64,000 nt of DNA from Rhodospirillales bacterium (GTDB lineage Bacteria; Pseudomonadota; Alphaproteobacteria; ATCC43930; CGMCC-115725): the NCBI GenBank assembly GCA_947473305.1, contig CANJCB010000001.1:1-64000 (forward strand), given 5' to 3'. Made by a program: the position numbers and the translations under genes. Below the pieces are notes generated by a model. That model saw nothing but the letters and a program-made list of their open reading frames with translations, did no database searches and was not told the origin of the DNA. This document shows positions 4,682 to 47,224 of the stretch, piece after piece. The stretch's first letter is position 1, and every line of letters begins with the position of its first letter.

Positions 4682-4767
4682 TAAATAGGGAGCGTTGTCT
4701 CGAAGATCGGAACAGGGCTCTAGAACCCGAAATTGAATAGGCCGCTAGGCATCAAACGTCGCCTTGA

Positions 4768-5251: not shown

Positions 5252-5252
5252 G

Positions 5253-5490
5253 TGGCGGAGGGGATGGGAAAAGAAGCCTACCTTCAAAAATCCGCAGAAA
5301 CCTAGCATTTCTGGGCTGTCACTGTATTGAGTGTGTAGCAGGCCTATGTAGCAGGGTAAAGTGGTAGCGATACCGCTTGATTGCAGAATGCCCCGGTGGG
5401 CGTAGATTCGAATGATTTTTGGGTAGCTTTAGGTGGCTCCTGTGGAACTGGGACAAGCCGTAAATTCCGATTAGCTGATTTCCCCAAATC
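5253..5490 (+). repeat. Putative attachment-site repeat, copy A (tRNA-Ser 3' end plus arm region)
   Basis: It starts with TGGCGGAGGGGATGGGA, which matches the plus-strand view of the tRNA-Ser 3' end at 33985 in 16 of the first 17 bases. The following 220 bases are a diverged direct copy of 17829-18063; by eye roughly 80% of bases agree, with small gaps. Inside is GTAGCAGG repeated at 5335 and 5348 (13-base period), the kind of short direct repeat used as integrase arm sites. Similarity between the copies begins exactly at the tRNA-like TGGCGG. I infer an old attL/attR of a tRNA-targeting island. Confidence 0.6.
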
Positions 5491-5559
5491 TCACGGGCGC
5501 TCGCTCGCCTCGCCCAACAGTTTTATGTAGACCAATCGCAACTGGGAGGGAATTAGGCA

Positions 5560-7056
5560 ATGAAGATGTTGCGATCCGGGCTCGCGGTAATCGGTTTGAT
5601 GATTTTTTCCGGTCTGTCCACCTTGGCCGCGGAGAGTACCGTCACCGTAGCACTCACCGCCGATGTTCCGACACTCGATCCAACGATCGACGTAGCCCCC
5701 ATCAGTCTTCATGTCCGGCTCAATGTCTTCGACGCGCTGACCGAGATCGCGGCGGACGGGTCGGTGGCGCCCCGCCTTGCGACTGAATGGACCGTCTCGC
5801 CCGACGCCGTTACCTGGACCTTCAGGCTCCGCAAGGGCGCCAAATTCCATGACGGCCAGCCAGTCACGCTCGACGATGTTATCTGGACCTATCAGAAGAT
5901 CCTAGCCGATGCCCGGGCGCCGATCCGCACGTTCGTATCCAACATCAAGACCGTGGAGAAAGTTGGCGACGATCAGGTGCGATTTACCTTGAGCGAGCCC
6001 CTATCGGTATTCCCCCGGCCGGTCTCGCTGATCTATATCGTGCCGCACAAGGCATATGAGGCGATGGGCGCCACGCAATTCGGACAGACGCCGGTCGGTT
6101 CCGGTCCCTATCGCGTCATCCGCTGGGTGAAGGACGAAAGCATCGAGTTGGAAGCCTTTCCCGGCTTCTGGGGTAGCGCACCCCGGCTCAAGACCGCCAT
6201 CCTGAAGCCGGTGCCCGAGGAATCGAGCCGGGTCGCCGCCCTGATCTCTGGCCAGGTCGATATCGTTCCGGCCCTGCCGCCCGCCATGGTTGACCGGCTC
6301 TCGACGCAGCCTGGCATCCGGGCTGAGCGTGCCGACGGATACCGCGTCGTCTATCTCGGCTTCAACACCGTCGATCCCCTTTTGAGCGACGTGAAGCTGC
6401 GGCTCGCCATCGACACTGCGGTGGACCGAGAGACGATCACGACAAAGCTCCTGCGGGGTATGGGAACGCCGGCCGGCCAGATCGTCTCGCCGGTGACTTT
6501 CGGCTACGACGCCTCGGTCAAGCCCACCGCCTACGATGTGGCGAAAGCCCGCGCCCTGCTAGCGGAGTCGCGCTACAAGGGCGAAACGATCCCCTTCCAT
6601 TACCCAAGCAACAACCTCGCTTCGGCGGCGAATGTCGCCCAAGCCATATCGGGCTACCTCGGCGCGATAGGCATCAAGACCGAGCTTATCGGGATGGAAT
6701 ACAATGGCTTCTTCCCACTCTGGTCAGCCCGGAAGCTGCCCGGAATGCATATGTTCGCGAACGGTGCGATCATGATGGACGGCAATTCCCAATTGACCGC
6801 GCTCTATGAAACCGGCTCGAGAGGCTATTGGACCGATCCTCGCGTGGACGAACTCATCCGCAAGCAACGAGCCGAAACCGATTCGGGCAAGCGGCTACAG
6901 CTAATGAGCGAGATCTGGCGAATCAGCAAGGACAACGCTCCCTATGCGCTGCTCTACAACGAGCGGCAGGCCTACGGCCTGAGCGACGGGGTAAGCTGGT
7001 CGCCGCGCCCGGACGGCGTGCTGCGTTTCACCGAGATCGCGCCACCCGCCCGATGA
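5560..7056 (+). CDS. ABC-transporter substrate-binding protein, family 5 (paralogue 1)
   Basis: A 498-residue exported protein with a cleavable signal (about residues 1-23, ending LAA). The family 5 hallmarks are TWTFRLRKGAKFHDGQPV near residue 87 and then DVIWTYQKIL. Family 5 proteins bind peptides, nickel, opines or glycosides for ABC importers. The same protein type, clearly paralogous along its whole length, occurs at 9564-11063 and 14546-16042; all three share the pattern TLDPxID just after the signal and YxGxxIxFxYP near residue 340. No permease or ATPase is adjacent. GGAGGG lies nine bases ahead of the ATG. The stop overlaps the next start (ATGA), so it is translationally coupled to the acyl-CoA synthetase. 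Confidence 0.9.
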   Translation: MKMLRSGLAVIGLMIFSGLSTLAAESTVTVALTADVPTLDPTIDVAPISLHVRLNVFDALTEIAADGSVAPRLATEWTVSPDAVTWTFRLRKGAKFHDGQPVTLDDVIWTYQKILADARAPIRTFVSNIKTVEKVGDDQVRFTLSEPLSVFPRPVSLIYIVPHKAYEAMGATQFGQTPVGSGPYRVIRWVKDESIELEAFPGFWGSAPRLKTAILKPVPEESSRVAALISGQVDIVPALPPAMVDRLSTQPGIRAERADGYRVVYLGFNTVDPLLSDVKLRLAIDTAVDRETITTKLLRGMGTPAGQIVSPVTFGYDASVKPTAYDVAKARALLAESRYKGETIPFHYPSNNLASAANVAQAISGYLGAIGIKTELIGMEYNGFFPLWSARKLPGMHMFANGAIMMDGNSQLTALYETGSRGYWTDPRVDELIRKQRAETDSGKRLQLMSEIWRISKDNAPYALLYNERQAYGLSDGVSWSPRPDGVLRFTEIAPPAR

Positions 7057-22142: not shown

Positions 22143-23240
22143 TCAATCCGCCATCGAGTGGACGTCGAGAGGCGCCTTGAGCTTTACTCCCTTGAGCGCC
22201 ACGCCCTGGCCCGTGCGGCCCTGGCGCTTGACATCCGAGATCGGCCGCCCCGTGGGGTCGTAGAGCCAGAGCCGCAACAGGTGTCGTTTGCGGTCGTCTT
22301 CCGGCCAGTCTTCGTATTCCCGGCGGGTGTGCAGCATCACGTGGTTGTTCAGGAACTGGATGTCCCCGGGCTCGAAGGGGATGTCCACCGCACAGTCTTG
22401 GATAACCTCGCGGTAAACCTTCACCGCTTCCTTCTGAGCCTCTGTCCAAGGCGGCACGTCGGGCAGCGCCGGAGCTTTCTCGACGCCGGCGCCGATACCT
22501 CCGGCGCTGAAATAACCGTCGGTGAAACTGAAGATCGGTTGCTTGAACCAGGGCAACTCGTCCGGGTTCTTTTCGCCGGTGCGGCTGAAATACCAGTCCT
22601 CGGCCAGAACCTTCGCCAGGTCCGGCCGCTGCGCCAGCATCCGGTTGTAAACCGTCACCGAACTCGCGATCCGGCTCTCGCCGCCATGCTTGGAGGATCT
22701 CAGGCAGAGGAGGCCGACGTATTCGGTCGGATCCACGTGGAACAGGAGTTCGGCTCGCGACATATAGCCCCGGCTGTTGGGCTCCCAATAGTCGGCGCCG
22801 AGATCCTTGACGTGACCCAGGATGTGGCCCTTGCCGTTCTGCGACACGGGCTTGCCGATATATGACCCCAAACCCAGGAAAGCGATGGCCCGTTCCTCGC
22901 GGTCGAAACGGTCGACCGGGAACCCCCGGAGCATGACCACGCCGCGTCCGTCCGCAAGCTCGCGGCGCACGTCCCGCATCAAATCGCCGAATGCCTGGAG
23001 TGGGAAGTCGCGTTGGCCGATATCCACAATGTCGACGCCATTGCGCCGAACGGTGGCGATGGCTTCGCATAATTCATCGATATCCTGAGGGGAGATCCGG
23101 TAGCTCCAGCTCGAAACATCCGCCAAAGCCGCAGCGTCCCATCCCGCCGGATCCATCACCGGCTCCAAAAGTCGGGCTGGCCGACGCTCGGCCCGGTGGA
23201 AGGTGCGGAAGTCGCTTGCGGAGAATTGTCCAAGGGACAT
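22143..23240 (-). CDS. TauD/TfdA-family Fe(II)/2-oxoglutarate dioxygenase
   Basis: A 365-residue intact homologue of the frameshifted gene at 3558-4681. It has the sequence ELADGRGVVMLRGFPVDRFD near residue 100, the iron-binding HVD in LLFHVDPTEYVG near 185, and the distal part LNNHVMLHTRREYEDW plus RRHLLRLWL near 310-330 with the last His ligand and the 2-oxoglutarate-binding Arg. The family hydroxylates a C-H bond while decarboxylating 2-oxoglutarate, often releasing sulfite, ammonia or aldehyde from the substrate. It is placed between the Old Yellow Enzyme and the family 5 binding protein in the operon. Confidence 0.9.
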   Translation of the reverse strand: MSLGQFSASDFRTFHRAERRPARLLEPVMDPAGWDAAALADVSSWSYRISPQDIDELCEAIATVRRNGVDIVDIGQRDFPLQAFGDLMRDVRRELADGRGVVMLRGFPVDRFDREERAIAFLGLGSYIGKPVSQNGKGHILGHVKDLGADYWEPNSRGYMSRAELLFHVDPTEYVGLLCLRSSKHGGESRIASSVTVYNRMLAQRPDLAKVLAEDWYFSRTGEKNPDELPWFKQPIFSFTDGYFSAGGIGAGVEKAPALPDVPPWTEAQKEAVKVYREVIQDCAVDIPFEPGDIQFLNNHVMLHTRREYEDWPEDDRKRHLLRLWLYDPTGRPISDVKRQGRTGQGVALKGVKLKAPLDVHSMAD

Positions 23241-23317: not shown

Positions 23318-24517
23318 CTATGCGCCAATACGAATTTTGACCCGATACATCAAATGCTCGAAGAGCTTCCGTTTACTGGTTCTCCAGCATTGAAGCGGGT
23401 CGATCCCCTCATGCACCGCGCAGATATTGCAGGAAACGCAATCGACCACTCCGCGCCGGCCTGCCTTTACCTGATTGGGAAAGTCGGGCTCGCGGATATA
23501 AGGGCGGGCCATGGAGACGAAGTCCACGATGCCGTCGCCCACGAGCTTTTCCATCATCTCAGTGGACCGGATTCCGCCGACGAGCATCATCGGGGTGGTC
23601 TTCATCCGCGCCCTCAACGCCTCCGCGCCGGGCAGGAAATAGGCTTGGGGCGAGGACGGATAGATCGCCCGATGGACGACCCAATCTTCGAGCGCGCGGC
23701 GCGGGGTGACAGCGACGAACCTGCCGATGCTGCTATTGGTGGAGACATGCATGATCCCGACAGAAACTTCGATCGCATCCGCCCCCGCCTCCGCCAGGGC
23801 CAAGGCACGCTCCACGCTTTCCGGGATCTCAAGGCCGCCCGGCATTGAATCGGCCATGCCGAGCTTTATGGTCACGGGGAAGTCGGGTCCTACAGCAGCC
23901 CGGATCTCGCGATAGACCGCCATGATGAAATTCGAGCGCCGGTCCGCGTCGCCGCCCCAATGGTCGGTCCGCTCGTTGCTGTGGGGCGAACTAAACTCGC
24001 TGATGAGATAGCCGTGGCCCGCGTGCACATGGATGCCGTCGAATCTAGCCTCTCGTGCCCGGCGAGCACCTTGGCCAAAGGCCTTAATGACTTCTTGAAT
24101 ATCGGCCTCGGAGGCCTCCTGCGGCATCCGCTTCGAGATGAAATTCTCGATGGGCGAAGGGGCCAGGGGCGCGATGGATTCGACGCGGCATTGGCTTCCC
24201 GCGTGACTCAATTCGGCGAAGATCGTGCCGCCGTCCTCGTGGACTTCCTTGGTCAGGCGACTGAGGCCCGGGATCATCGCGTCGTCGTGTATCCCGGCCT
24301 GTCTCTTCTGATACCGTCCCCGAGGGTGCACGAACATATGCCCGGTGAGGATAAGCCCCGCCCCGCCCCGCGCCAGGGTCCTATAGAGGCCGATGTAATC
24401 GTCACTGGCAATGCCATCCGGATTGCACATCGTTTCCGATGTGGAGGCCCGGACGAAGCGGTTGCGGATGGTCAGCTTGCCGATTCGATGCGGCTCGAAG
24501 AGAACTTCAGTGCCCAC
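23318..24517 (-). CDS. Old Yellow Enzyme family oxidoreductase with iron-sulfur cysteines
   Basis: A 399-residue protein with the FMN barrel of the 2,4-dienoyl-CoA reductase branch: LFEPHRIGKLTIRNRFVRA at the start, ELSHAGSQ near residue 102, HAGHGYLISEFSSPHSN near 168 and MLVGGIRS near 308. Close to the end four cysteines are spaced C-x2-C-x2-C-x10-C (CVSCNICAV through LQCW), the 4Fe-4S ligand pattern of this branch. The NAD(P)H/FAD domain that usually follows is missing; the protein stops about 20 residues after the last cysteine. It may receive electrons from another protein or act as a partial enzyme. It lies 38 bases behind the permease genes. Confidence 0.85.
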   Translation of the reverse strand: MGTEVLFEPHRIGKLTIRNRFVRASTSETMCNPDGIASDDYIGLYRTLARGGAGLILTGHMFVHPRGRYQKRQAGIHDDAMIPGLSRLTKEVHEDGGTIFAELSHAGSQCRVESIAPLAPSPIENFISKRMPQEASEADIQEVIKAFGQGARRAREARFDGIHVHAGHGYLISEFSSPHSNERTDHWGGDADRRSNFIMAVYREIRAAVGPDFPVTIKLGMADSMPGGLEIPESVERALALAEAGADAIEVSVGIMHVSTNSSIGRFVAVTPRRALEDWVVHRAIYPSSPQAYFLPGAEALRARMKTTPMMLVGGIRSTEMMEKLVGDGIVDFVSMARPYIREPDFPNQVKAGRRGVVDCVSCNICAVHEGIDPLQCWRTSKRKLFEHLMYRVKIRIGA

Positions 24518-24555: not shown

Positions 24556-25356
24556 CTACGCCTCGTTCGATTTGAGAAATTGCATCGCTGCGAAGACGAT
24601 CAGGGCGAGCGCGATCAAAAGGGTGGAGATCGCGGCAATAGTCGGATCGATGCTGTTTCTGAGCTGGTTGAACATTTGCCGGGGGAGCGTCGCGTTGGAT
24701 CCTCCGGAGATGAAGAGCGCGATGACCACCTCGTCGAAGGAGGCGATGAAGGTCAGGAAACCGGCGGACATCACCGAGAATTTTATCTGCGGCAGGGTAA
24801 CGGTCATAAAAGCCTTGAGGCGATTGGCGCCGAGACTGCGGGCGACCATCTCCTGGTTCCGGTCGAAGCGCCTCAAGCCGGCCGCGATCATCGTGATGGC
24901 TAGGGGCAGCGTGTACATCGTATGCGCTGCCACGAGACCAACCATGGTGTTGATGAGGCCGAGACGCGCATAGAGAAAATAGATTCCGATGGCGACCAGG
25001 ATGAGAGGCACGATCAGCGGCAGCATGAGCGTCGCGGAGATGAACTTCCCCAATCCCGTCCTGATCGAATTCAGGCCATAGGCGGCCATGATGCCCAGGG
25101 GAATGGTGCAGCAGACGGTAAGGAGAGCCGCAAGCATCGAGTTATAGGCGGAAGATTGCCACCGGGCCGAAGAGAACAATCTCACGTACCACTGCAACGA
25201 CAGGGATTCCGGCGGGAATTGCAACGTCGAGGTGTTGGAGAAGGACACCGGGATAACGACAAAGATCGGCGCGGCCAGAAACGCCAGCAGTAAAGCGAGC
25301 AGGATATAGAGCCAAGCCCTATGCCAATGGGGAATGTAGTTGGTGTCCTGCGACAT
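24556..25356 (-). CDS. ABC-transporter permease, PotC-like
   Basis: A 266-residue membrane protein with about six hydrophobic segments, the first at residues 15-37. It has the binding-protein-dependent permease loop MVARSLGANRLKAFMTVTLP near residue 170, which contacts the ATPase. It is homologous to the second permease of spermidine/putrescine-type importers. The ATG at 25356 overlaps the stop of the upstream permease (ATGA), so the two are translated together. With the ATPase and binding protein upstream it forms a complete importer. Confidence 0.9.
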   Translation of the reverse strand: MSQDTNYIPHWHRAWLYILLALLLAFLAAPIFVVIPVSFSNTSTLQFPPESLSLQWYVRLFSSARWQSSAYNSMLAALLTVCCTIPLGIMAAYGLNSIRTGLGKFISATLMLPLIVPLILVAIGIYFLYARLGLINTMVGLVAAHTMYTLPLAITMIAAGLRRFDRNQEMVARSLGANRLKAFMTVTLPQIKFSVMSAGFLTFIASFDEVVIALFISGGSNATLPRQMFNQLRNSIDPTIAAISTLLIALALIVFAAMQFLKSNEA

Positions 25357-26261
25357 CAGAGTTCGACCTGATTGGCTTTTACGCCGACCAAGGTGCGTGC
25401 GAGGACCAGCACCGCCACGGTGGCGCCGAGCAGGAGGAGGCCAGCCGCCGCCGCAGGCCCCCATTGCGTATTGAAGGAGACGGTCTGCTCCAGGAAGATC
25501 GCCCAGACGATCACCTTGCCGCCGCCCAGGATGGAAGGGGTCACGTAATAGCCGAGCGACAGCACGAAGACCAAGGTCGCGCCGGCAAAGAGCCCCGGTA
25601 GCGTCAACGGAAAGAAAATATCCCGGAAGGCAGTGCTCGGTGTGGCTCCAAGGCTCGACGCCGCGCGCACCAGATCCCCGTCGATCGACTTCATCGCCGC
25701 ATAGAGCGGCAGGACGATCATCGGCATCATGACGTGGACCATGCCGAGCACGGTGCAGAAGTAGTTGTAGACGAGGTTCAGTGGCTCGTCGATGACGCCG
25801 AGATTGGCGAGGACGTTGTTCACGATGCCACGTCGGCCCAGGATGATGAGCCAGGCATAGGTTCTGACAAGCACCGAGGTCAGCAGCGGGACGACCACGA
25901 AGAACATGCAGAACTTCCGCAATCGCTCAGGCAAGACGGTAAGCGCGAAAGCAAGGGGATAGGCAAGCAGGCTGCAGATCACCGTCACTTCGGCGGACAG
26001 CAGAAACGTATTTTGCAGATAAGAGAGGCGCTTCGGCTCACTGAAGAGCGAGAGGTAGTGGTGAAGGGTAAAATGTCCTTCGCCATCGACCAACGATTGC
26101 CAGATCAGCCATCCGACCGGCGAGAGCAGAACGGCAGCCACGACGAAGAGCCCCGGAAGGGCGAGGCCAATCATAAGTGAGCGCTCACGGCGTGCGTCTT
26201 TCGCAAGCGCCGGAGCGATACCGCTGTCGCGTCGAAGCGGGGGAACCGCGATCTCGTTCAT
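25356..26261 (-). CDS. ABC-transporter permease, PotB-like
   Basis: A 301-residue membrane protein. A cytoplasmic N-terminus of about 35 residues precedes the first membrane span (MIGLALPGLFVVAAVLLSPV). The EAA-like loop LVRAASSLGATPSTAFRDIF near residue 210 docks to the ATPase. It matches the first permease of the spermidine/putrescine/iron-type importer class. The ATG at 26261 overlaps the stop of the ATPase gene (ATGA) and starts a typical sequence; longer versions add unlikely Arg/Gly-rich residues. It probably pairs with the permease at 24556 to make the heterodimeric channel. Confidence 0.9.
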   Translation of the reverse strand: MNEIAVPPLRRDSGIAPALAKDARRERSLMIGLALPGLFVVAAVLLSPVGWLIWQSLVDGEGHFTLHHYLSLFSEPKRLSYLQNTFLLSAEVTVICSLLAYPLAFALTVLPERLRKFCMFFVVVPLLTSVLVRTYAWLIILGRRGIVNNVLANLGVIDEPLNLVYNYFCTVLGMVHVMMPMIVLPLYAAMKSIDGDLVRAASSLGATPSTAFRDIFFPLTLPGLFAGATLVFVLSLGYYVTPSILGGGKVIVWAIFLEQTVSFNTQWGPAAAAGLLLLGATVAVLVLARTLVGVKANQVEL

Positions 26262-27328
26262 GTCGGCCTGACGATCACACTGTCCTCCGGATGGAAGGCG
26301 ATGTCGATGCGCTCCCCCGGTTTGCAGATCTCTTCCACAGCGCGGTGGTGGACCCCACAACGGATCGATATTTCGGTCCCGTCGGTCAGTATCGCGTAGA
26401 CCGTCAGTTCGTCTCCCCGGTAGATGACTTCCTGCGCCGTCGCCGAGAGCCGGTTGAGATCGCTTCCATCATGGGTTTTGACGATTTGGATGCGTTCAGG
26501 ACGGATCACCAGAAAACCTTGCCCGGAGGAATCCGTATCGATACGGCCCCCTACTTTCAAATCCGCGCCGGCGCCGATGACCGTCGATCCCGTGACGCTC
26601 ACGGGAATGAGGTTCGATTCGCCGATGAACTGGGCGACAAAGCGGCTTTCCGGCGTCTCGTAGAGGTCGCGGGGCTTGCCCATCTGGATGATCCGGCCAT
26701 TGTCCATGACCGCGACCCGATCCGACATGGCGATGGCCTCGCCCTGGTCGTGGGTGACGTAAACTGTGGTCATCTTCAACGACTGATGCAGACGCTTCAA
26801 TTCCACCTGCATCTGCTCGCGCAAATTCTTGTCCAGGGCAGACAGGGGCTCGTCCATGAGCAGGACCTTGGGCGCGAAGACCACTGCCCTTGCCAGCGCC
26901 ACCCGTTGCCTCTGGCCACCGGAAAGCTCCTGCACCCGGCGATGACCAAGGCCGTCGAGGCGCACCAGTTTCAGTGCCTCTTCGACCTTCACGCGCCGCT
27001 CGGCGGCCGGGACATGCCGGAGCTTCAGCGGGTAGGCGATATTCTCCGAAACGTCCATATGCGGAAAGAGCGCGTAGTTCTGAAAAACCACCCCGACATC
27101 CCGCCGGTGGGGCGGCATCCGGATCACTTCGGTGTCGCCGAATTTGAGGCTGCCCCCATCGGCCCGGATAAAGCCCGCGATGACCATCAAGAGGGTCGTC
27201 TTGCCCGATCCCGACGGCCCCAGAAGCGTAAAGAACTCGCCATCTCTTATATCGAGGTCGATATGGTCCAGCGCGATGACCGAACCATAGGATTTTCGCA
27301 CGCCACGCATCGAGATGGACTGTGTCAC
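26258..27328 (-). CDS. ABC-transporter ATP-binding protein, PotA-like
   Basis: A 356-residue ATPase with Walker A GPSGSGKTT near residue 38, signature LSGGQRQRVALARA near residue 135, Walker B VLLMDEPLSALD and the switch histidine in VYVTHDQGEA. The C-terminal 120 residues form a TOBE-type regulatory domain. It powers the importer formed with the permeases at 25356 and 24556 and the binding protein at 27412. The PotA class serves polyamines, but also other small amines, phosphonates, thiamine and iron, so the class alone does not fix the substrate. Confidence 0.93.
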   Translation of the reverse strand: MTQSISMRGVRKSYGSVIALDHIDLDIRDGEFFTLLGPSGSGKTTLLMVIAGFIRADGGSLKFGDTEVIRMPPHRRDVGVVFQNYALFPHMDVSENIAYPLKLRHVPAAERRVKVEEALKLVRLDGLGHRRVQELSGGQRQRVALARAVVFAPKVLLMDEPLSALDKNLREQMQVELKRLHQSLKMTTVYVTHDQGEAIAMSDRVAVMDNGRIIQMGKPRDLYETPESRFVAQFIGESNLIPVSVTGSTVIGAGADLKVGGRIDTDSSGQGFLVIRPERIQIVKTHDGSDLNRLSATAQEVIYRGDELTVYAILTDGTEISIRCGVHHRAVEEICKPGERIDIAFHPEDSVIVRPT

Positions 27329-27411: not shown

Positions 27412-28434
27412 CTAGTTGGAGATGGCGGCGGTATAGACCTGCGACAGCCGATCGAGGTTCGGGCCCCACCATTCCTGATTGAGATAAACAAGCCGGGTCT
27501 TGTTCTCAGGATTGGTCGTGAGCGTCTTGCGCCGCGCCTCGGAAATATTCGGCCAGGCCTTCTGATTTATCGGCGCAACGTCCGTCAGCTCCGCGATCTT
27601 GCCGTTGATTTCGGGCGAGACCATTCCCCCGATGAATTTCATCGCGAGATCCTTATGCTTCGATCCCTTGGGGATGACATAGCAATCGATGTCCACGACG
27701 CTCTGATCGGTGATGATACCGTAGTCGGCGCCGTCCTTGATCGCGTCCTGGGCACGATTGGTGAAGATGGCGACCAGATCGGCTTCGCCATCGCGGATGA
27801 GTTGCGTGCCCTGGCCGCCGGTCGTGTAGAATACCTTCACGGCAGGCTTCAACTCCTTGATCTTGCGGAGTGCGCGTTCCTCGTCGATGGGATAGAGCTT
27901 GTCGCCGGCCACGCCATCCGCCAGAAGCGCCGTTTCCAACGAGAAATTGGGTTTGTTCAGCATCGCCCGAGTGCCGGGAAACTTCTTCACATCCCAGAAA
28001 TCAGCCCAATTCTGCGGCGGATTGCTGCCGTACTTCTTCTTACTATAGGCGATGGACATCGTGTATTCGTCCGATCCCACATAGTAATCCTTCACGACCT
28101 GAGCACGGATGCCGTCGGTTTTAATGACGTTGTAGTCGAGCTTCTCGGCGAGCTTGCCGTCCGAAACCAATCCGCAAGAATAGCCACCGAGTTGAAGAAC
28201 ATCCCAGGAGACGTTACCTGATTCGACCATCGTGCGGAGTTCCGCCGCCTTTTGTTGGGAATCCTCGGCGATGGTGATACCGAGTTGCTTAGCCACGGGA
28301 TCCCACCAGGCCTTCTTCATGCTTTCCTGGAACTGGCCTCCGGACGCCACCAATGTGAGGTCCGCCGCCGCCGCACCGCCGACATAAGTCATCGCCAGTA
28401 ACGCCCCGCCAATCACAATCTTAGATCCGCGCAT
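27412..28434 (-). CDS. Spermidine/putrescine-type substrate-binding protein, PotD-like
   Basis: A 340-residue exported protein with signal peptide (about 1-24, ending GGAAAAD). It has the family sequence LTLVASGGQFQESMKKAWWD just after it, then NVSWDVLQLGGYSCG near residue 73 and YPIDEERALRKIKELKPAVK near 185. It is the soluble partner of the adjacent PotABC-like importer. The acidic residues that clamp polyamine amino groups in true PotD cannot be placed reliably by eye, so polyamine binding is not claimed. The ATG at 28434 has GAAGGGGG upstream. It lies between the diiron-type oxidase gene and the ATPase gene. Confidence 0.88.
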   Translation of the reverse strand: MRGSKIVIGGALLAMTYVGGAAAADLTLVASGGQFQESMKKAWWDPVAKQLGITIAEDSQQKAAELRTMVESGNVSWDVLQLGGYSCGLVSDGKLAEKLDYNVIKTDGIRAQVVKDYYVGSDEYTMSIAYSKKKYGSNPPQNWADFWDVKKFPGTRAMLNKPNFSLETALLADGVAGDKLYPIDEERALRKIKELKPAVKVFYTTGGQGTQLIRDGEADLVAIFTNRAQDAIKDGADYGIITDQSVVDIDCYVIPKGSKHKDLAMKFIGGMVSPEINGKIAELTDVAPINQKAWPNISEARRKTLTTNPENKTRLVYLNQEWWGPNLDRLSQVYTAAISN

Positions 28435-28490: not shown

Positions 28491-29207
28491 TTATTTGATT
28501 TTCTCGACCCGCTGCCAGATGTCCTCGAACATGGTCCAAAGCGTCTCAACGCAATCCCGGACGGACTTGATGACGAGATTGACCTCATGGTCGGTCGGAG
28601 CGAATCTTTGCAGGAATTCGAGCCCGCCGCCGGAATGGTCCGAATCCGCGATCTCATGAACCGAGTAGAACATCGCCTGCTCTGTCGTGAGCCCATAATA
28701 CTTCATGAAGCCTTCGGAAACCTTGCCCGCGATGCCCGGAGCCTGGGCCTCGCCGCCTAGGGACAGGGCCGAGTAGCCCTCCAGGAAGCTCGTGCGGCAG
28801 ATGTTCTCCAGGTAATGCCGGACAGCGAGCGCGCCGCCGCAATATTCGGTGGAGTACATTTCCTCCCGAGACACGCCGAAAGCCTCGGCCATGCGGAGAT
28901 AGAGCTCGTAGTGGGCGACGCCGTCGGAATAGATCCCGCCCGTGCCTTCCTCATAGACCACCTCAGCCATATGTCGGCGCCAGATGGGGTCCGGGCAGCT
29001 CACATAGAGCGGGCCATGATAAAAATGGTTATAGAGCGGGATCACCGCGAACTGACGAAGGAACTCCGCGATCTGGGGACGCGACAGCTTACCCGTCATC
29101 ATGCCGATCCAAAGCGGATGGTTCTTGCGCGACTTCGCGGCGTGGATCTTGTTCAGCTCTTCGATGACCGACTCATGGCTCCTGGTGAGCTTGTCCGATC
29201 CGTCCAT
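28491..29207 (-). CDS. Haem-oxygenase-like (TenA/PqqC-type) iron-containing oxidase
   Basis: A 238-residue all-helical protein of the TenA/PqqC superfamily. Candidate metal ligands are E86 in VVYEEG, H99 in AHYELY, and H184, D188 and H191 in VHEIADSDHSGG, matching the helix pattern of haem-oxygenase-like diiron oxidases (CADD, UndA, SznF, BesC type) more than thiaminase TenA. Members cleave C-C bonds, N-oxygenate amines or desaturate. It lies between the two-domain dioxygenase gene and the importer genes, with 32 and 56 bases between them, so it belongs to the same transcript. Substrate unknown; the ligand assignment is by eye. Confidence 0.8.
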   Translation of the reverse strand: MDGSDKLTRSHESVIEELNKIHAAKSRKNHPLWIGMMTGKLSRPQIAEFLRQFAVIPLYNHFYHGPLYVSCPDPIWRRHMAEVVYEEGTGGIYSDGVAHYELYLRMAEAFGVSREEMYSTEYCGGALAVRHYLENICRTSFLEGYSALSLGGEAQAPGIAGKVSEGFMKYYGLTTEQAMFYSVHEIADSDHSGGGLEFLQRFAPTDHEVNLVIKSVRDCVETLWTMFEDIWQRVEKIK

Positions 29208-29239
29208 ACAATTGTCCTTTCAAAACGCTGTGTGATGCC

Positions 29240-30178
29240 TCAGGCCGCTAGCTTGTAGAATTCGATTTGCATCCCGTCGGGGTCCGTCAAAACGATCCCC
29301 TGGCGCCCGTCGTCCTCAATATTTTCGATCGGGCCAACGCCCTTGGATTGGAGCCGCTTCTTCGCGGTGTCGAGGTCGGTGCCGCTCTCCAGAACCATGG
29401 CGAAGCGCCGGTAGCCAGTAGGCTGCCCCTGGGCAACCTCTTGGAGCACCAAGTCCCTGTTTCCGTGGGTTCCCTCGTAAACCGCCCGACGGAGGCCGCC
29501 CTGGGTTTTTTCCGAAACTTTTCGAAGACCGATTACGTCGGTGATGAAACCCGTCATCGCCTCGAAATTGGTTGTCTGGAATAAGGCCCCCGCCGTATGC
29601 CGCGGATGGAGCGGGGCTTCCGCGACCTGCCGGATCGGTGGCGCCTCGGTATAGAAGGGTTGCGTATTCGGACGGCTCTCGGCGAGGGGATCCCATTGGC
29701 TGGTCATGAGCTCCCGACGCTCCAGGTTCATCAGGCTGCGCCAGTCTTTTGTCGTATCGGCATAGAATTCATGAGCGTTGCCATCGGGGTCGGTGATGTA
29801 GATCGCATGGGAAATGCGATGGTCGAAGAGCGCAGCCGTACCGAAACCGGCGGCTTTCAAGCGCTTGTAGGCGTCGACGAGTTGGGCCTCGTTTTCCATC
29901 TCCCAACCCAAATGGTTCAGGCCCGGCTTGATACCCCGCGTTTTGGGCACCTGGATCTTGCCATCGCGGCCGATGCGATCCACGCCCTTAGACGTCTCGA
30001 CGATCCCGATGTCGTGATGGGTGTTGCCGTTCGAATGGAAACCCGCCTTGAGCTGGTCCTCGATACAGACGAGTTCGATGCCGCAAACCTTCTCGTAGAA
30101 ATCCATCGAGCGCTGAAGTTCGTCGGCATAGATGTTCACATGCCCCAATCGGCGGGGCTTGAAGTTGACCTTGTCCAT
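29240..30178 (-). CDS. Two-domain vicinal oxygen chelate dioxygenase (extradiol type)
   Basis: A 312-residue protein with two glyoxalase/extradiol repeats: residues about 10-145 and 190-310. The first has a complete metal triad: His in LGHVNIY (residue 13), His in LNHLGW and Glu in AHEFYAD. The second has FQTTNFEAM at the place of the first His, and ends MQIEFYKLAA, so its metal site looks incomplete. Extradiol enzymes cut an aromatic ring next to two hydroxyls with Fe(II) and oxygen. The ATG at 30178 has GGAGGG five bases ahead; a longer version starting upstream would overlap the hydrolase gene. Confidence 0.85.
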   Translation of the reverse strand: MDKVNFKPRRLGHVNIYADELQRSMDFYEKVCGIELVCIEDQLKAGFHSNGNTHHDIGIVETSKGVDRIGRDGKIQVPKTRGIKPGLNHLGWEMENEAQLVDAYKRLKAAGFGTAALFDHRISHAIYITDPDGNAHEFYADTTKDWRSLMNLERRELMTSQWDPLAESRPNTQPFYTEAPPIRQVAEAPLHPRHTAGALFQTTNFEAMTGFITDVIGLRKVSEKTQGGLRRAVYEGTHGNRDLVLQEVAQGQPTGYRRFAMVLESGTDLDTAKKRLQSKGVGPIENIEDDGRQGIVLTDPDGMQIEFYKLAA

Positions 30179-30188
30179 GAACCCTCCG

Positions 30189-30890
30189 TTACGAGGCAAC
30201 GAGTGTGCGGTGGAAAAACACCGCAACCCGGCTGTTTGCCAATTGCGATGCAAAGCGGTGATAGACCGCCCTGGCGCTGTCGCTGTCGAAAGCGTGTCCC
30301 GCCCCCGGATAGACGAAGCACTCGACGTCTTTTCGGTTTTTGAAACGCTCGATGACCTTGGCCGTCGCATCGGGGCTTTCGAGTACGTCACGCTCGGGGA
30401 AGTGAAGGCTCATCGGGCATTTCACTTGATCCGCCTTGTCGAGGCAGCGCTCCACCCAGGTGGGATAGAAACCGGCTGCCGCATCGATGTCGCCATTCGC
30501 TGCCGCTAGAAAGGCCATCCGCCCGCCGAAGCAATAGCCCATGGCGCCGATCTTGCCGGTCACTTCCGGCATCTGCCGGAAGGCCTTCGCGATCACTCGC
30601 ATATCGGAGGCGCCTTCCGCGTCGGTGTGGCGATTCATCAGCCCTTCGGCTCGGCCGAGTCCTTCCTTCGTGTAGTCGTTTTCAGCAACCGGATCGAGCC
30701 GCCAGAACATATTCGGTGCCAGGACCACGTAGCCGAGGCCCGCATAGAAATCCGCCGCCGCGCGCAGATGGAAATTGATGCCGGCAATTTCGTGAATCAG
30801 GATAACCCCGGGTCCCCGGCCTGATTCCGGGAGGGCAAGATAGGCTCTGGATTCTCCGCCTAGCATTTGCAGAAAAATGTCTTTGCCCAT
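30189..30890 (-). CDS. Dienelactone-hydrolase-family enzyme
   Basis: A 233-residue alpha/beta hydrolase with the dienelactone hydrolase signature: E34 in LIHEIAGIN, nucleophile C120 in GYCFGG, an Asp in PERDVLESPDA and His in GAGHAFD. The Cys nucleophile is typical of this family, which opens lactones produced in aromatic ring breakdown. It is the first gene of the eleven-gene minus-strand operon, 10 bases ahead of the extradiol-type dioxygenase. A 298-base region separates it from the divergent GntR regulator. Intact length and motifs. Confidence 0.88.
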   Translation of the reverse strand: MGKDIFLQMLGGESRAYLALPESGRGPGVILIHEIAGINFHLRAAADFYAGLGYVVLAPNMFWRLDPVAENDYTKEGLGRAEGLMNRHTDAEGASDMRVIAKAFRQMPEVTGKIGAMGYCFGGRMAFLAAANGDIDAAAGFYPTWVERCLDKADQVKCPMSLHFPERDVLESPDATAKVIERFKNRKDVECFVYPGAGHAFDSDSARAVYHRFASQLANSRVAVFFHRTLVAS

Positions 30891-31188: not shown

Positions 31189-31965
31189 ATGATTGGACGC
31201 CCCCTTGTTCTGCAAATTGACATGGGCGATGGGCTGGCGCGCAAAAGTCTTGCGGAGCAGGTCTACGAGCTTCTCGAACGCGCGGTCGTCCAAGGCCAAA
31301 TACCCCCCGGAACCCGGCTCAGCGAAGAGGCCATTGGAGCCGCCTTCGCGGTAAGCCGCTCTCCGGCGCGGGAGGCGATCGCCGAACTGGAATTAAAGGG
31401 ACTGGCGGAACGTCTGCCCAATCGGGAGAGGCGCGTAACCGTGCCATCTGAGATTTTTATACGCGACACTTATGGCGTCTGGATCCTTTTGGAAAGCGAG
31501 CGGCTTTTCATGGCGAGCACCGTCGCCGAGCCCGAACTGGTCGCGAGCCTCGAAGAGCAGGTGGACCGCATCGAGGCGTTGACGCCGCGAGGAAGCGCCG
31601 CAGAAATTTCAGCGGCCGTGACCGCGTTTCACACCGATCTGCAGCGCGGCTGCCCCAACAAGCAACTCCATCGGATCACCGGCGACTGGAATCTCTACAT
31701 AAGATGGCTCCGACGCCTCTATTTCGATTACGACGCGGAAGCGACGGAGAGGGGGATTTCGGATCACCGCAGCATCGTCGAATGCTTCAAGCAGCGCAGC
31801 CGTCCCAAACTTTTCAAGGCGATGCGTAAGCACGTCGAATGGCAGCGCGATCTTGTGCTCGAGGGATGGCGCAAAAGTAACGCGGCTTGGTTGGTCGAGA
31901 CAGGCGGAATGCTCGAGTTCAGATTGACTGGCCGCGCCGATATCCCGGTAGGTCCGTTGGGCTGA
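31189..31965 (+). CDS. GntR-family transcriptional regulator, FCD domain
   Basis: A 258-residue regulator. The winged helix-turn-helix covers about residues 20-85 (LAEQVYELLERAVVQGQIPPG, then LSEEAIGAAFAVSRSPAREA, helices 2 and 3). The all-helical FCD ligand domain follows to about residue 235 and has several His and Asp residues (FHTDL, DHRSIVECF) that usually bind a metal near the effector. Members are repressors released by an organic acid or a related catabolite. It is transcribed away from the eleven-gene operon, which it probably controls. A shorter start at ATG 31222 (MGDGLARKSL) is possible. Confidence 0.88.
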   Translation: MIGRPLVLQIDMGDGLARKSLAEQVYELLERAVVQGQIPPGTRLSEEAIGAAFAVSRSPAREAIAELELKGLAERLPNRERRVTVPSEIFIRDTYGVWILLESERLFMASTVAEPELVASLEEQVDRIEALTPRGSAAEISAAVTAFHTDLQRGCPNKQLHRITGDWNLYIRWLRRLYFDYDAEATERGISDHRSIVECFKQRSRPKLFKAMRKHVEWQRDLVLEGWRKSNAAWLVETGGMLEFRLTGRADIPVGPLG

Positions 31966-32247: not shown

Positions 32248-32694
32248 TTGCGGCGCGAACTATCGGCGCCACGAGCGTCCGGACTTCATCGTATACGGCA
32301 ATCTGGCGAGCGTTGGCGGCGGGATCGCTTCACACATGATCTAGTTGTGGAAGGCATCCGCCTCGTTCTTGAAGCCTGGGCCCCGGATGGCGACGGTACC
32401 GTGCCCGAAACCTTCCCCGCAACGAAGGCGCTCGAGCACTCTCCGCTTCGTGACCGTGTTCGCGAGGCCCTCATACGAGACCTCCGCAAAAGCCGGCGGA
32501 GCACCCTCGTCACTCTCGCTAGGTCTTCAGTGCTGAACGCGGTCAGGCAAATCGACGCCGCCATTGAAGATCCTGGGGATCGAGAACCGGACGACGCGAA
32601 GAAGGTCTATCGCACCATTTCCGAATTGCTGGGACCTAGTAAAAGACCCCCGGTCTTGCTTGACGAATCAGAGAGAAAGGGACCCGAGAGATGA
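32248..32694 (+). CDS. Hypothetical protein coupled to the integrase
   Basis: A 148-residue frame beginning at TTG 32248 and ending in TGA at 32692-32694, which overlaps the integrase start (ATGA at 32691). The central part (HDLVVEGIRLVLEAWAPDG and DRVREALIRDLRKSRRS) looks like a real helical protein, and the end VYRTISELLGPSK is plausible, while the first 30 residues are Arg-rich and may lie out of the real frame. I recognise no family. The overlap suggests that it was translated together with the integrase, perhaps as a DNA-binding excision or control factor, but there is no motif to show this. Confidence 0.45.
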   Translation: MRRELSAPRASGLHRIRQSGERWRRDRFTHDLVVEGIRLVLEAWAPDGDGTVPETFPATKALEHSPLRDRVREALIRDLRKSRRSTLVTLARSSVLNAVRQIDAAIEDPGDREPDDAKKVYRTISELLGPSKRPPVLLDESERKGPER

Positions 32695-33856
32695 GCACCG
32701 GCGGTCACGTTCGAAAGCGCGGCGAAGGCACCTGGGAGTTGAAATTCGATCTCGGAACCGATCCCCTCACCGGCAAGCGGAAGACGCGCTACCACAACTT
32801 CAAAGGGACGAAACCAGAGGCGTGAAGCATCTGCGGGAACTGATGAAGTCAGCGGACGATGGCGCTTACGTCGATCCGACGAAGACGACGCTATCCGAAT
32901 TCCTAACTCGCTGGGAAACGTGGGTATCGACCCAGGTAAGCGGGAAGACGCTGGAGCGCTATAAGGAATTGGCCACGCACCACGTGCGCCCTCACATCGG
33001 CGCCTCGCGCATGCAGAAACTCCAGACGGTCCATTTCGCGGAGCTATACGGCAAGTTGCAAAAGGCCAAGGCCAATGGAGGATCCGGCCTCGCCCCACGA
33101 ACGGTCGGTCACGTCCACCGCCTCTTGCACCAGGTCTTTGGGCACGCTGTGAAATGGCAAGTCATTACGATCAATCCGGTAGCATTGGCTGACCCACCCC
33201 GCGTCGAGCGTACCGAAGTTGAGATCCTGTCGCCCGATCAGATAAAGAAACTGCTTACGGAACTCCGCACTCAAACCCTCTATCCCGATCTCTACCCTGT
33301 GGCGGTGATGGGCATTTCAACGGGGATGCGACGCGGCGAGATGCTGGCGCTCCGATGGGGCGACGTCGACCTGGATGGCGGCAAACTTCGTGTCGAACGA
33401 TCGATTGAACAGACGAACGCCGGCATATCGTTCAAGGCACCTAAGACGAAAGCCGGCCGCCGCACGGTTACCATTCCGCCCTCGATCGTTGCCGAACTGC
33501 GGAAGCATTGGACCGAGCAGCAGAAACGGCGGCTCATCCTCGGCCTGGGCAAGGCCGGCGTGGACGATCTCGTGCTCTCGCGTGCTGATGCAAGCACATG
33601 GCCGCCCGATTCCCTCACGATGGAATGGGCGCGGGCGATCCACGTCCTCAAGCTACCGAAGGTTACGCTGCACGCTCTACGCCATACCCATGTCAGCCAG
33701 CTCATTGCCGCCGGAATGGACGTGGTGACGGTGAGCCACCGGATCGGACATAGCAACCCGACCGTGACCCTTGGGGTCTACTCGCATCTTTTCGGTAATA
33801 CCGACGAGCGGGCCGCCGCCGTGGTCGAGGCCGCCCTTGGATCTGTTCTCGCGTAG
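32691..33856 (+). pseudogene. Tyrosine recombinase (island/phage integrase), frameshifted
   Basis: The first frame from ATG 32691 gives RKRGEGTWELKFDLGTDPLT and KRKTRYHNFKGTKPEA before TGA at 32823. The rest continues one base back as KHLRELMKSADDGAYVDP and runs to the stop at 33856. Together they would give about 388 residues: arm-binding N-domain, SAM-like core-binding domain (LSEFLTRWETWV onward) and a complete catalytic domain with Arg in GMRRGEM, HALRHTH, the later His in RIGHSN and Tyr in GVYSHLFG. One missing base near 32822 explains the break. It lies 128 bases from the tRNA-Ser 3' end, the classical position for an integrase that uses the tRNA. Confidence 0.85.
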
Positions 33857-33890
33857 CAGAACCCTCCGCGAACGTCTCGAAAACAGGTTC

Positions 33891-33909
33891 GGTGGCAATC
33901 CGGTGGCAA
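33891..33909 (+). repeat. Short direct repeats, candidate integrase arm sites
   Basis: GGTGGCAA occurs at 33891-33898 and 33902-33909, an 11-base period, between the integrase stop and the tRNA end. It resembles in layout the paired GTAGCAGG repeats at 5335/5348 and 17910/17923. Paired short repeats next to the core site are usual for tyrosine integrases. Confidence 0.4.
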
Positions 33910-33984
33910 ACGGCGCAAAAGCCTGCACGGCGGCAGCGGTTCCACCACTTTGAAAACGCGAAAGTATCAAGCTTTTCAAGACGG

Positions 33985-34076
33985 TGGCGGAGGGGATGAG
34001 ATTCGAACTCACGATAGGGTTTAACCCCTATAACGGTTTAGCAAACCGCCGCCTTCAGCCACTCGGCCACCCCTCC
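33985..34076 (-). tRNA. tRNA-Ser (GCU anticodon)
   Basis: Read on the minus strand, the gene starts GGAGGGGTGGCCGAGTGG, has the anticodon loop TTTGCTAAA (anticodon GCT), a long variable arm typical of serine tRNA, the T-loop sequence GAGTTCGAATCTC and ends CTCCGCCA with an encoded CCA. The length is 92 nt including CCA. The 3' end (plus strand 33985 onward, TGGCGGAGGGGATG) is copied at 5253 and 17829. The gene stays complete, as expected when an island re-creates the end of its target. Confidence 0.95.
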
Positions 34077-44542: not shown

Positions 44543-47224
44543 ATGAAGGTCGTCATCGTCGAATCGCCTGCCAAGGCGAAAACCATCAACAAGTATCTTG
44601 GCAGCGATTATTCCGTCTACGCCAGCTACGGCCATGTCCGGGACCTCCCGGCCAAGGACGGATCGGTGCGTCCCGAAGAAGACTTCGCCATGTCCTGGGA
44701 AGTGGACAGCAAGGCCGAGAAGCGGATGCGCGAGATCGCCGCCGCGGTCAAAGGCGCCGACCAGCTCTTCCTCGCCACCGATCCCGACCGCGAAGGAGAG
44801 GCCATCTCCTGGCACGTCCAGGAGGTCCTGAACCAGCGCCACGTCTTGAAGGGCGTGGACGTGAAGCGCGTCGTCTTCAACGAAGTCACCAAATCCGCCG
44901 TCCAGGAGGCCTTCCGCCATCCCCGCGAGGTCAATAAGGAACTCGTCGACGCCTATCTGGCCCGCCGAGCGCTCGATTACCTCGTCGGCTTTACCCTGTC
45001 GCCGGTGCTCTGGCGCAAGTTGCCGGGCAGCCGCTCAGCCGGCCGCGTGCAATCCGTGGCGCTCCGCCTCATCTGCGAGCGCGAAGCCGAGATCGAGGCC
45101 TTCAAAGCCCGCGAATACTGGAGCATCGAGGCCGAGTTCCGCACCGCGGCAGGCGACACCTTCACCGCACGCTTGACCCATATCGACGGCAAGAAGCTGG
45201 AACGCTACGACCTGCCCAACGAGGCGGCGGCCAAGACGGCGCTGGAAAAGATCCAGCGCGAGACCGACTTCGCGATCTCGTCGCTCGAAAAAAAGCAGGT
45301 CCGTCGGCATCCCCAGCCGCCCTTCACCACCTCGACCCTTCAGCAGGAAGCCTCTCGCAAGCTCGGATTCGGCGCGAGCAACACCATGCGCACCGCCCAG
45401 CGGCTCTACGAAGGCGTCGATATCGGCGGCGAGACGGTCGGCCTCATCACCTATATGCGAACGGACAGCGTGACGCTGTCCAATGAGGCTCTGGGTTCGA
45501 CGCGCAGCCTGATCGAGCGCAATTTCGGCAACGACTACCGGCCCGAAGCCCCGCGCATCTACAAGAGCCAGGCGAAGAACGCCCAGGAAGCCCATGAGGC
45601 GATCCGGCCGACCGACCTTTTCCGCAAGCCTGCCGACCTCACGCGCCAGCTTGAGCCGGAACAGCTGCGTCTCTACGAGCTGATCTGGAAGCGCACGGTC
45701 GCGAGCCAGATGGCTTCCGCCGTCCTCGATCAGGTCACGGTCGACGTGGCGGCACCCGGCGGCAGTGTCGTCTTCCGCGCGACCGGCACGACCATCGCTT
45801 TCGACGGCTTCCTGAAACTCTACCAGGAAGACCGCGACGACGCCGAGGAGGACGAGGAGAACCGCCGCCTGCCCCCCATGCGCCAGGGCGAGACCGCGAC
45901 CCGTGGCGTCCTTAAGCCCGACCAGCATTTCACGCAGCCACCGCCGCGCTATACCGAGGCGAGCCTCGTCAAGAAATTGGAAGAGCTCGGCATCGGGCGG
46001 CCTTCGACCTATGCCTCCATCATCCAGGTCCTGCAAGACCGAGACTACGTGAAGATCGAGAAGAAGCGCTTCGTGCCAGAGGATCGGGGGCGGCTCGTCA
46101 CCTCATTCCTGACGAGCTTCTTCGACCGCTATGTCCAATATAATTTCACCGCCGATCTCGAAAACCAGCTCGACCAGATCTCCGACGGGCAGATCGACTG
46201 GAAGAAAGTGCTGGCGGATTTCTGGCGGGACTTCTCGGCTTCGGTTGCTGGCACCAAGGAACTGACGATCTCCCAGGTGGTCACCGAGCTCGACGAGCAG
46301 CTCGGTCCCCATTTCTTCCCCGATGACGGCAGCGACCGCGACCCGCGCCTCTGCCCGGTTTGCGGTGAGGGCCGGCTCTCGATCAAGCTCGGCAAGTTCG
46401 GGGCCTTCATCGGCTGCTCCAACTATCCCACCTGCCGCAACACACGGCCGCTCTCGGTGGAAGGCGCTTCGCCGATCGACGGGGGTGAGAATCCGGCCGA
46501 CAACGGGCCGAAGCTCCTCGGCAACGATCCCGACACGGGCCTGACGGTCACTGTCCGCAAGGGCCCCTATGGCAATTATATCCAGCTCGGCGAAGGCGGC
46601 GAGGGCGAAAAACCCAAGCGGGTCTCCCTTCCGAAGGACATCAAACCCAGCGAGATCGACCTCGACACGGCGCTGAAGCTCCTGTCCCTGCCGCGCGACA
46701 TCGGCGCACATCCCGAGACCGGCGAGATGATCACCGCGGGCATCGGACGCTTTGGTCCCTATGTAAAGCTCGGCAAGACTTTCAAGTCGCTCCAGGCGGG
46801 CGACGACGTGCTGGCGGTCGGTCTCAACCGCGCGGTCATGCTGCTGGCGGAACCGTCGAAGGGCGGACGCTCCGCGCCAACCCCGATCCGCGTGCTCGGC
46901 AATCATCCCGCCGATGGCGAACCCATCGGGGTCTTCAAGGGACGTTATGGCCCCTATGTGAGCCATGACGGGGTCTTCGCGACCTTGCCGCGAACCTCGT
47001 CGCCCGAGACCATCACCCTCGAAGAAGCCCTTCCCCTCCTCGCCGCCCAGGCGGAGAAGAGCAAGGGCAAGCGCAAGACCAAAGCGAAGACGGCGGCGCC
47101 CGCCAAGAAAACCGCCCCCGCCAAAGCGAAAGCCGCCCCTGCAAAGGCCAAGGCCGCACCGAAGAAGAAAGCCGCCGCCAAGGCGAAGAAGCCCGCCGCC
47201 AAGCCTCAAGCAAAAGCCGGCTGA
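44543..47224 (+). CDS. topA: DNA topoisomerase I
   Basis: An 893-residue type IA topoisomerase. The N-terminal Toprim domain has VVIVESPAKAKTI and ATDPDREGEAISWH, with the Asp/Glu that bind magnesium. The catalytic tyrosine is Tyr304 in LITYMRTDS. A zinc finger follows (CPVCGEGRLS then CSNYPTC), then further topoisomerase zinc-ribbon-like repeats that have lost cysteines. The last 55 residues are a Lys/Ala/Pro-rich tail that should bind DNA non-specifically. The protein relaxes negative supercoils. A GTG/ATG farther upstream would overlap dprA and is not needed. Confidence 0.96.
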   Translation: MKVVIVESPAKAKTINKYLGSDYSVYASYGHVRDLPAKDGSVRPEEDFAMSWEVDSKAEKRMREIAAAVKGADQLFLATDPDREGEAISWHVQEVLNQRHVLKGVDVKRVVFNEVTKSAVQEAFRHPREVNKELVDAYLARRALDYLVGFTLSPVLWRKLPGSRSAGRVQSVALRLICEREAEIEAFKAREYWSIEAEFRTAAGDTFTARLTHIDGKKLERYDLPNEAAAKTALEKIQRETDFAISSLEKKQVRRHPQPPFTTSTLQQEASRKLGFGASNTMRTAQRLYEGVDIGGETVGLITYMRTDSVTLSNEALGSTRSLIERNFGNDYRPEAPRIYKSQAKNAQEAHEAIRPTDLFRKPADLTRQLEPEQLRLYELIWKRTVASQMASAVLDQVTVDVAAPGGSVVFRATGTTIAFDGFLKLYQEDRDDAEEDEENRRLPPMRQGETATRGVLKPDQHFTQPPPRYTEASLVKKLEELGIGRPSTYASIIQVLQDRDYVKIEKKRFVPEDRGRLVTSFLTSFFDRYVQYNFTADLENQLDQISDGQIDWKKVLADFWRDFSASVAGTKELTISQVVTELDEQLGPHFFPDDGSDRDPRLCPVCGEGRLSIKLGKFGAFIGCSNYPTCRNTRPLSVEGASPIDGGENPADNGPKLLGNDPDTGLTVTVRKGPYGNYIQLGEGGEGEKPKRVSLPKDIKPSEIDLDTALKLLSLPRDIGAHPETGEMITAGIGRFGPYVKLGKTFKSLQAGDDVLAVGLNRAVMLLAEPSKGGRSAPTPIRVLGNHPADGEPIGVFKGRYGPYVSHDGVFATLPRTSSPETITLEEALPLLAAQAEKSKGKRKTKAKTAAPAKKTAPAKAKAAPAKAKAAPKKKAAAKAKKPAAKPQAKAG

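Follow-up and report, generated by a model that had tools for sequence, protein, structure and literature searches.

A haem-oxygenase-like diiron-type protein encoded next to an extradiol-type dioxygenase in a Rhodospirillales bacterium

What reaction could a haem-oxygenase-like dimetal oxidase/oxygenase (HDO) perform beside an extradiol-type dioxygenase? The question is raised by a DNA stretch of 64,000 nucleotides from a Rhodospirillales bacterium (contig CANJCB010000001.1, positions 1 to 64,000; hereafter the window), in which a gene for a protein of this kind is found next to genes for a two-domain vicinal oxygen chelate (VOC) protein and a dienelactone hydrolase (DLH). The initial annotation of the window assigned to the HDO protein an oxidative step in the breakdown of a ring or side chain. 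The present analysis, in which extradiol enzymes recur beside HDO genes, is likewise best read as pointing to a ring-degrading pathway with an oxidative step. The three genes are as follows.

28491..29207, minus strand: HDO-type haem-oxygenase-like protein, 238 amino acids (PF14518; predicted model and fold match; ligand alignment and conservation)
29240..30178, minus strand: two-domain VOC extradiol-type dioxygenase, 312 amino acids (PF00903, 86.9 bits)
30189..30890, minus strand: DLH family protein with a cysteine nucleophile (C120), 233 amino acids (PF01738, 144.2 bits)

Fold and ligand set of the HDO protein

The HDO protein matches the family PF14518 (Haem_oxygenas_2; 54.8 bits) and, more weakly, PF03070 (TENA_THI-4; 28.4 bits), both above cut-off. 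Its predicted model (pLDDT 94.7, pTM 0.90) has the haem-oxygenase-like helical fold, and the closest solved structure is CADD, with an rmsd of 1.9 over 211 residues. The overlay on CADD, UndA, BesC and PqqC proposed in the initial annotation gives a match to each of the four (Z 26.3, 22.8, 21.1 and 24.6, respectively); FlcD (Z 23.9) and HrmI (Z 23.4) are also matched. The fold is thus shared with UndA, BesC, HrmI, FlcD and other characterised HDOs (Z 21 to 24), whereas identity to them over the structural alignment is only 11 to 22%.

In a profile alignment, residues E87, H99, E153, H184, D188 and H191 of the HDO protein pair with E81, H88, E142, H174, D178 and H181 of CADD (numbers counted off the printed alignment), which we take to be the CADD metal ligands. 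All six positions are invariant, in 21/21 proteins of alignment A1 and in 39/39 of alignment A2, the latter consisting of the window protein and 38 relatives; the two alignments have rows in common and amount to 51 distinct rows once contained duplicates are removed. The five residues listed in the initial annotation (E86, H99, H184, D188 and H191) are all present in the 238-residue reading frame and equally invariant in both alignments. As a list of ligands it holds less well, since E86 lies one position off the CADD-paired E87, which is probably the residue meant, and the sixth ligand, E153, was left out. With the full set paired to that of CADD, the six-ligand site suspected there is, by alignment, a complete diiron-type site of the 3His/3carboxylate (3H/3C) kind, and the product of 28491..29207 is very probably an iron-dependent, O2-using enzyme of the HDO family. 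UndA, BesC and HrmI are placed in the 3H/3C class in a review (PMC13108848), and FlcD is described as having lost two ligands (PMC11363339).

The nearest relatives in fold and sequence, CADD and chains named 4-aminobenzoate synthase, raise the possibility that the protein is itself a self-sacrificing p-aminobenzoate synthase of the CADD (CT610)/NePabS kind. It resembles these enzymes in fold and in the six-ligand set, and the CADD model TIGR04305 gives 77.6 bits. This score is far under the cut-off of 200, and the residues on which the chemistry depends are not kept. According to PMC11965152, CADD sacrifices Tyr27 and uses Lys152 as amine donor. The tyrosine aligns with W33 of the HDO protein, a position held by tryptophan in 18 and tyrosine in 3 of the 21 proteins of A1 and by tryptophan in 39/39 of A2; the lysine aligns with position 163, which is never lysine in either alignment. 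Unlike CADD and NePabS, the window gene also neighbours ring-cleavage and uptake genes. We therefore rejected this assignment as very improbable. A PqqC identity was rejected as well (TIGR02111, 47 bits against a cut-off of 240).

A TenA-like thiaminase or pyrimidine-salvage enzyme is another candidate that the fold brings to mind. The PF03070 match speaks for it, as do the structures titled TenA or TenA homologue, which align with the model at Z 17.7 to 22.2, and the NMT1/THI5-like binding proteins, which are the most frequent family near HDO genes (see below). The salvage_TenA model TIGR04306 finds no match to the HDO protein at E values up to 0.01 and none in the window's genome, against 9 positive genomes among the 31 searched, and the metal-ligand set is invariant. 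The initial annotation had named a TenA active site as the outcome that would speak against it; no TenA profile match was obtained for the protein, and its profile alignment to TenA is weak and partial (probability 12.7), too weak to place the catalytic cysteine. We consider a TenA function hardly credible and rejected it.

The extradiol-type neighbour and the same-strand gene run

The neighbouring VOC protein was compared with known extradiol dioxygenases. Its residues H13, H89 and E137 compose a 2-His-1-carboxylate triad and H55, H120 and Y127 a His/His/Tyr second shell, presumably equivalent to the residues found in type I extradiol dioxygenases, to which we matched them by spacing. All six are kept in 14/14 aligned proteins. 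The predicted model (pLDDT 85.3) has the two-domain VOC fold and is closest to catechol 2,3-dioxygenases (LapB: Z 24.6, rmsd 2.6 over 249 residues), so that the extradiol-type dioxygenase of the initial annotation is borne out.

In known type I extradiol dioxygenases the active site lies in the C-terminal domain. The window protein departs from this: its residues 6-141 match positions 135-260 of the HpaD model, which places the site in the N-terminal domain, and inspection by eye shows that its C-terminal domain lacks both histidines. In the protein at 29240-30178 and its relatives the N-terminal domain carries the full site and the C-terminal one is degenerate, opposite to the usual arrangement. 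LapB, XylE, BphC and HpaD have the same two-domain fold and full catalytic set, with the site in the C-terminal domain. On the basis of these residues, the window protein is predicted to work like a type I extradiol dioxygenase with a swapped site.

The third gene codes for a genuine member of the DLH family, as first annotated: besides the PF01738 match, E34, C120, D168 and H199 align with the positions of dienelactone hydrolase that we take to be catalytic, including the Cys-Asp-His triad. The same family match and the same four positions are found in dienelactone hydrolases of the clcD type. Those enzymes follow intradiol cleavage in the chlorocatechol pathway, whereas the window protein is encoded with an extradiol-type enzyme.

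Upstream of the HDO gene and on the same strand lie the VOC gene (gap of 32 bp) and then the DLH gene (gap of 10 bp). The spacing is what the co-transcription of the three genes, taken as given in the initial annotation, is inferred from. The same-strand run extends beyond the trio to position 22143, in the order DLH-VOC-HDO-ABC importer-old yellow enzyme (OYE)-TauD, with gaps past the HDO gene of about -10 to 83 bp that vary with the starts chosen. Its further members and the divergent regulator are listed here.

27412..28434, minus strand: extracellular solute-binding protein (SBP_bac_8), PotD-like (PF13416, 123.4 bits; start codon of our own choice)
26258..27328, minus strand: ABC transporter ATPase, PotA-like (TIGR01187, 377.3 bits, above the cut-off of 355.6)
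25356..26261, minus strand: ABC permease, PotB-like (PF00528, 45.5 bits; PotB model 155 bits, under cut-off)
24556..25356, minus strand: ABC permease, PotC-like (PF00528, 52.7 bits; PotC model 117.5 bits, under cut-off)
23318..24517, minus strand: OYE-type flavin oxidoreductase (PF00724, 217 bits, and solved relatives)
22143..23240, minus strand: TauD-family Fe/2-oxoglutarate dioxygenase (PF02668, 124.2 bits; nearest solved chain FrbJ)
31189..31965, plus strand: divergent GntR/FCD regulator (PF00392, 57 bits; PF07729, 51.8 bits)

Scans for promoters and terminators stayed at chance level. Beyond the regulator, a tyrosine-recombinase gene (32564-33856; Phage_integrase, 66.9 bits) adjoins a tRNA-Ser(GCT) at 33985-34076, and the G+C content steps from about 0.58-0.63 on the operon side to 0.63-0.66 beyond. 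The integrase next to tRNA-Ser, together with this step, suggests that the operon is located on a genomic island with a probable edge at 32564-34076. A search for a repeat of the tRNA-Ser 3' end that would mark the opposite edge gave no second copy; elsewhere in the genome there is a single match, on a different contig and with one mismatch. A further tRNA-like call by ARAGORN (45232-45323) has a two-base anticodon, lies inside a long coding region and is probably spurious.

HDO genes and their neighbours

Gene neighbourhoods were compared at 45 HDO loci, the window included. In the window's own genome, 4 of the 5 copies of the window-type VOC gene have an HDO gene within 4 kb, a proximity with a random-placement P of about 5e-7, or 2e-5 when the window pair is set aside. 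Over all loci, such a VOC gene is found within 4 kb of HDO in 11/45, representing ten distinct places.

In the tree of the 51 rows, the window HDO groups with those of L037, L038 and L039, from the same genome (support 100/99). The HDO gene adjoins a VOC gene in the window and L037. In L038 it adjoins a LigB-family extradiol gene, with an alpha/beta hydrolase gene next in line; the product of the LigB-family gene gives 41.3 bits with Pfam LigB and has no solved relative at E 0.001. Two unrelated extradiol families therefore occupy the same place beside HDO. Elsewhere, four genes stand in a row in L075: one for a LigB extradiol enzyme (PRK13373, 417.5 bits, cut-off 462), one for an HsaD-like hydrolase, one for an NMT1 protein, and HDO. 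In L071, HDO is followed by a Rieske ferredoxin gene and a two-domain VOC gene of another kind, with RidA-type genes on both sides. The ferredoxin gene starts 22 bp after HDO in this locus and 26 bp after it in L042. Rieske oxygenase genes directly adjoin HDO in L073 and L085 and are the second gene away in L074 and L088. A TauD-family gene adjoins HDO in L040, where a binding protein similar to that of the window (33%) is also encoded close by, and stands one gene off in L057.

The neighbourhood search gave a different result for the DLH-VOC-HDO trio, the combination that, according to the initial annotation, may mark a new route. A DLH-family gene is found within 3 kb of HDO in only 3/45 loci, namely the window, L041 and L086 (25% identity), and the conserved trio was dropped. 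The recurring unit is HDO with an extradiol enzyme, either VOC or LigB.

The same loci bear on the position of HDO relative to ring cleavage. Instead of acting on the ring, the enzyme could work after ring opening, cleaving a C-C bond of the product or trimming it oxidatively in the manner of UndA and BesC, which act on fatty and amino acids and match the model at the Z values given above. The cleavage of C-C bonds in chains is a reaction of known HDOs (PMC13108848), and in L039 the gene next to HDO resembles that of a meta-cleavage-type hydratase (HpaH model, 113.6 bits, under cut-off). However, the direct neighbour in the window, L037 and L038 is the ring-opening enzyme itself, and the ferredoxin gene beside HDO in L042 and L071 fits a monooxygenase. 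A step after ring opening is thus unlikely.

The families encoded near and far from HDO were also compared. The near set comprises every near protein left after deduplication (135 of 151), the far set a random 135 of the 304 that were left of 342 far proteins. Proteins of fewer than 80 residues and near-identical proteins (at least 88%) were left out, and six loci stand outside the comparison: L043, with a distant paralogue only, and L065, L070, L076, L077 and L086, in which HDO was missed by the gene caller. Binding proteins of the NMT1/THI5 type are the most frequent near family (12/135) and do not appear among the 25 far families shown, the lowest count of which is 2 (Fisher P about 0.01, with the far count taken as 2). 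GFA (6 of 135 near) and RidA (5 of 135 near) are also missing from the 25 far families shown.

The RidA-type genes are relevant to a second alternative, in which HDO would N-oxygenate an amino group or the ring nitrogen of an N-containing aromatic compound, as in SznF, HrmI and RohS, on a route via imines. The nitrile-hydratase-like protein encoded next to HDO in L059, the isochorismatase-type hydrolase of L074 and the structural match to HrmI point in the same direction. A seventh ligand, the additional carboxylate of 3H/4C sites, is not conserved between E87 and H99, where position 95 varies; this is a weak objection, because HrmI N-oxygenates with a 3H/3C site (PMC13108848). We regard N-oxygenation as rather improbable.

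Other gene arrangements were observed at these loci. L042 (8371-11004) has two HDO genes flanking an aspartate-dehydrogenase gene, then the Rieske ferredoxin gene and ABC importer genes. L066 (7351-10455) has three HDO genes in 3.1 kb, surrounded by genes for NMT1-type binding proteins and permeases. The nitrile-hydratase-like protein of L059 (8828-9862), encoded directly 3' of HDO, combines an alpha and a beta N-terminal NHase domain in a single chain. In five Defluviicoccus records (L062, 9143-9835, with counterparts in L063, L064, L067 and L092), a second, distant CADD-like protein is encoded after HDO; the L067 copy gives 64.1 bits with TIGR04305, and an E/H/E/H/D/H pattern is recognisable by eye. 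Near the HDO gene of L039, genes for an alpha/beta hydrolase, a RidA-type protein and a nitroreductase stand in a row (4399-6395) that recalls RutD, RutC and RutE of pyrimidine use, with scores under the Rut cut-offs. Two UbiD-like decarboxylase genes lie upstream of HDO on the opposite strand in L087 (3627-7928); the nearer one gives 176 bits to UbiD and the other was judged by eye.

The window's genome has nine PF14518 genes, eight of which belong to the window HDO subfamily at E 1e-20; the seven paralogues are 42 to 89% identical to the window protein. Within the 39 genomes of the bacterial family, many of the 38 others being incomplete, the subfamily was found in this genome only. Among 385 genomes of the class, Alphaproteobacteria, 7 have an HDO match at E 1e-25, and two of them, from one genus, carry at least 7 copies each. 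Phylum-wide, 397 of 398 genomes have no match at E 1e-30, the exception being that of the window. No relative was matched at E 1e-8 in the plasmid collection (72,556 records), and a first scan of genome contigs with the single sequence as query found none. By their record titles, the 38 relative loci come from metagenome-assembled genomes of Alpha- and Betaproteobacteria, including Baikal-deep, K_Offshore, Defluviicoccus and Rhodospirillaceae. The metagenome bins of L061, L071, L077, L081 and L086 bear the species names Bordetella parapertussis or Rhizobium sp. Q54, which look like automatic labels. VOC and HDO occur together in 4 of the 385 class genomes, of which 7 have HDO and 9 have VOC (Fisher P about 5e-6).

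A possible role in the degradation of aromatic compounds

An oxygenase function in a ring-degrading pathway is a probable role for HDO in its broad form. In its specific form, our best explanation is that the protein activates O2 at the 3H/3C diiron site within an operon for the import and degradation of a (hetero)aromatic compound, a proposal that we hold with evenly divided confidence. The PotABCD-like importer would take up an aromatic or heteroaromatic compound, which the TauD-like dioxygenase, the OYE or both might trim. Oxidation by HDO, at the ring or at a substituent, would then yield an ortho-dihydroxy (or amino-hydroxy) compound, the VOC enzyme would open the ring, and DLH would hydrolyse the ring-opened product, under the control of the divergent GntR/FCD protein. 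The order of these steps is our own reconstruction; action of HDO ahead of ring cleavage is the likelier order, and a tentative one.

Several observations weigh against a degradative partnership of this kind. Alpha/beta hydrolases are nearly as frequent in the far set as in the near set (7 and 9 of 135 each), and Rieske and Glyoxalase families each count 3 far and 6 near. The presence of catabolic families in the far set indicates that part of the signal arises from whole regions being catabolic. Three of the four class genomes with both VOC and HDO belong to one genus; of the 9 class genomes with VOC, 5 have no HDO match among the matches listed, and for 18 of the 25 listed VOC matches there is no listed HDO match within 5 kb. 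The ferredoxin cases of L042 and L071 fall in one clade and may represent one event, and the window operon contains no ferredoxin gene.

The functions of HDOs in the parts of the review PMC13108848 consulted here are biosynthetic; a word search of the review finds nothing starting with 'degrad' and 'catabol' once, on haem. Judging by titles and the beginnings of abstracts, no degradative HDO was recognised in the open-licence literature. The loci compared here may reflect a radiation of degradative HDOs in Alpha- and Betaproteobacteria of the environment that are uncultured, with eight copies in the window's genome and at least seven in each of two others. These enzymes, in some operons served by a Rieske ferredoxin, would act on different (N-hetero)aromatic compounds and oxidise them before extradiol cleavage, a possibility to which we give somewhat less than even weight. 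If true, a superfamily characterised to date in biosynthesis would have a catabolic branch, and the fold would gain a degradative role. Many HDO copies are encoded with their own importer, the binding protein of which could name the substrate. The family may mark how little-known bacteria attack organic matter that is hard to degrade.

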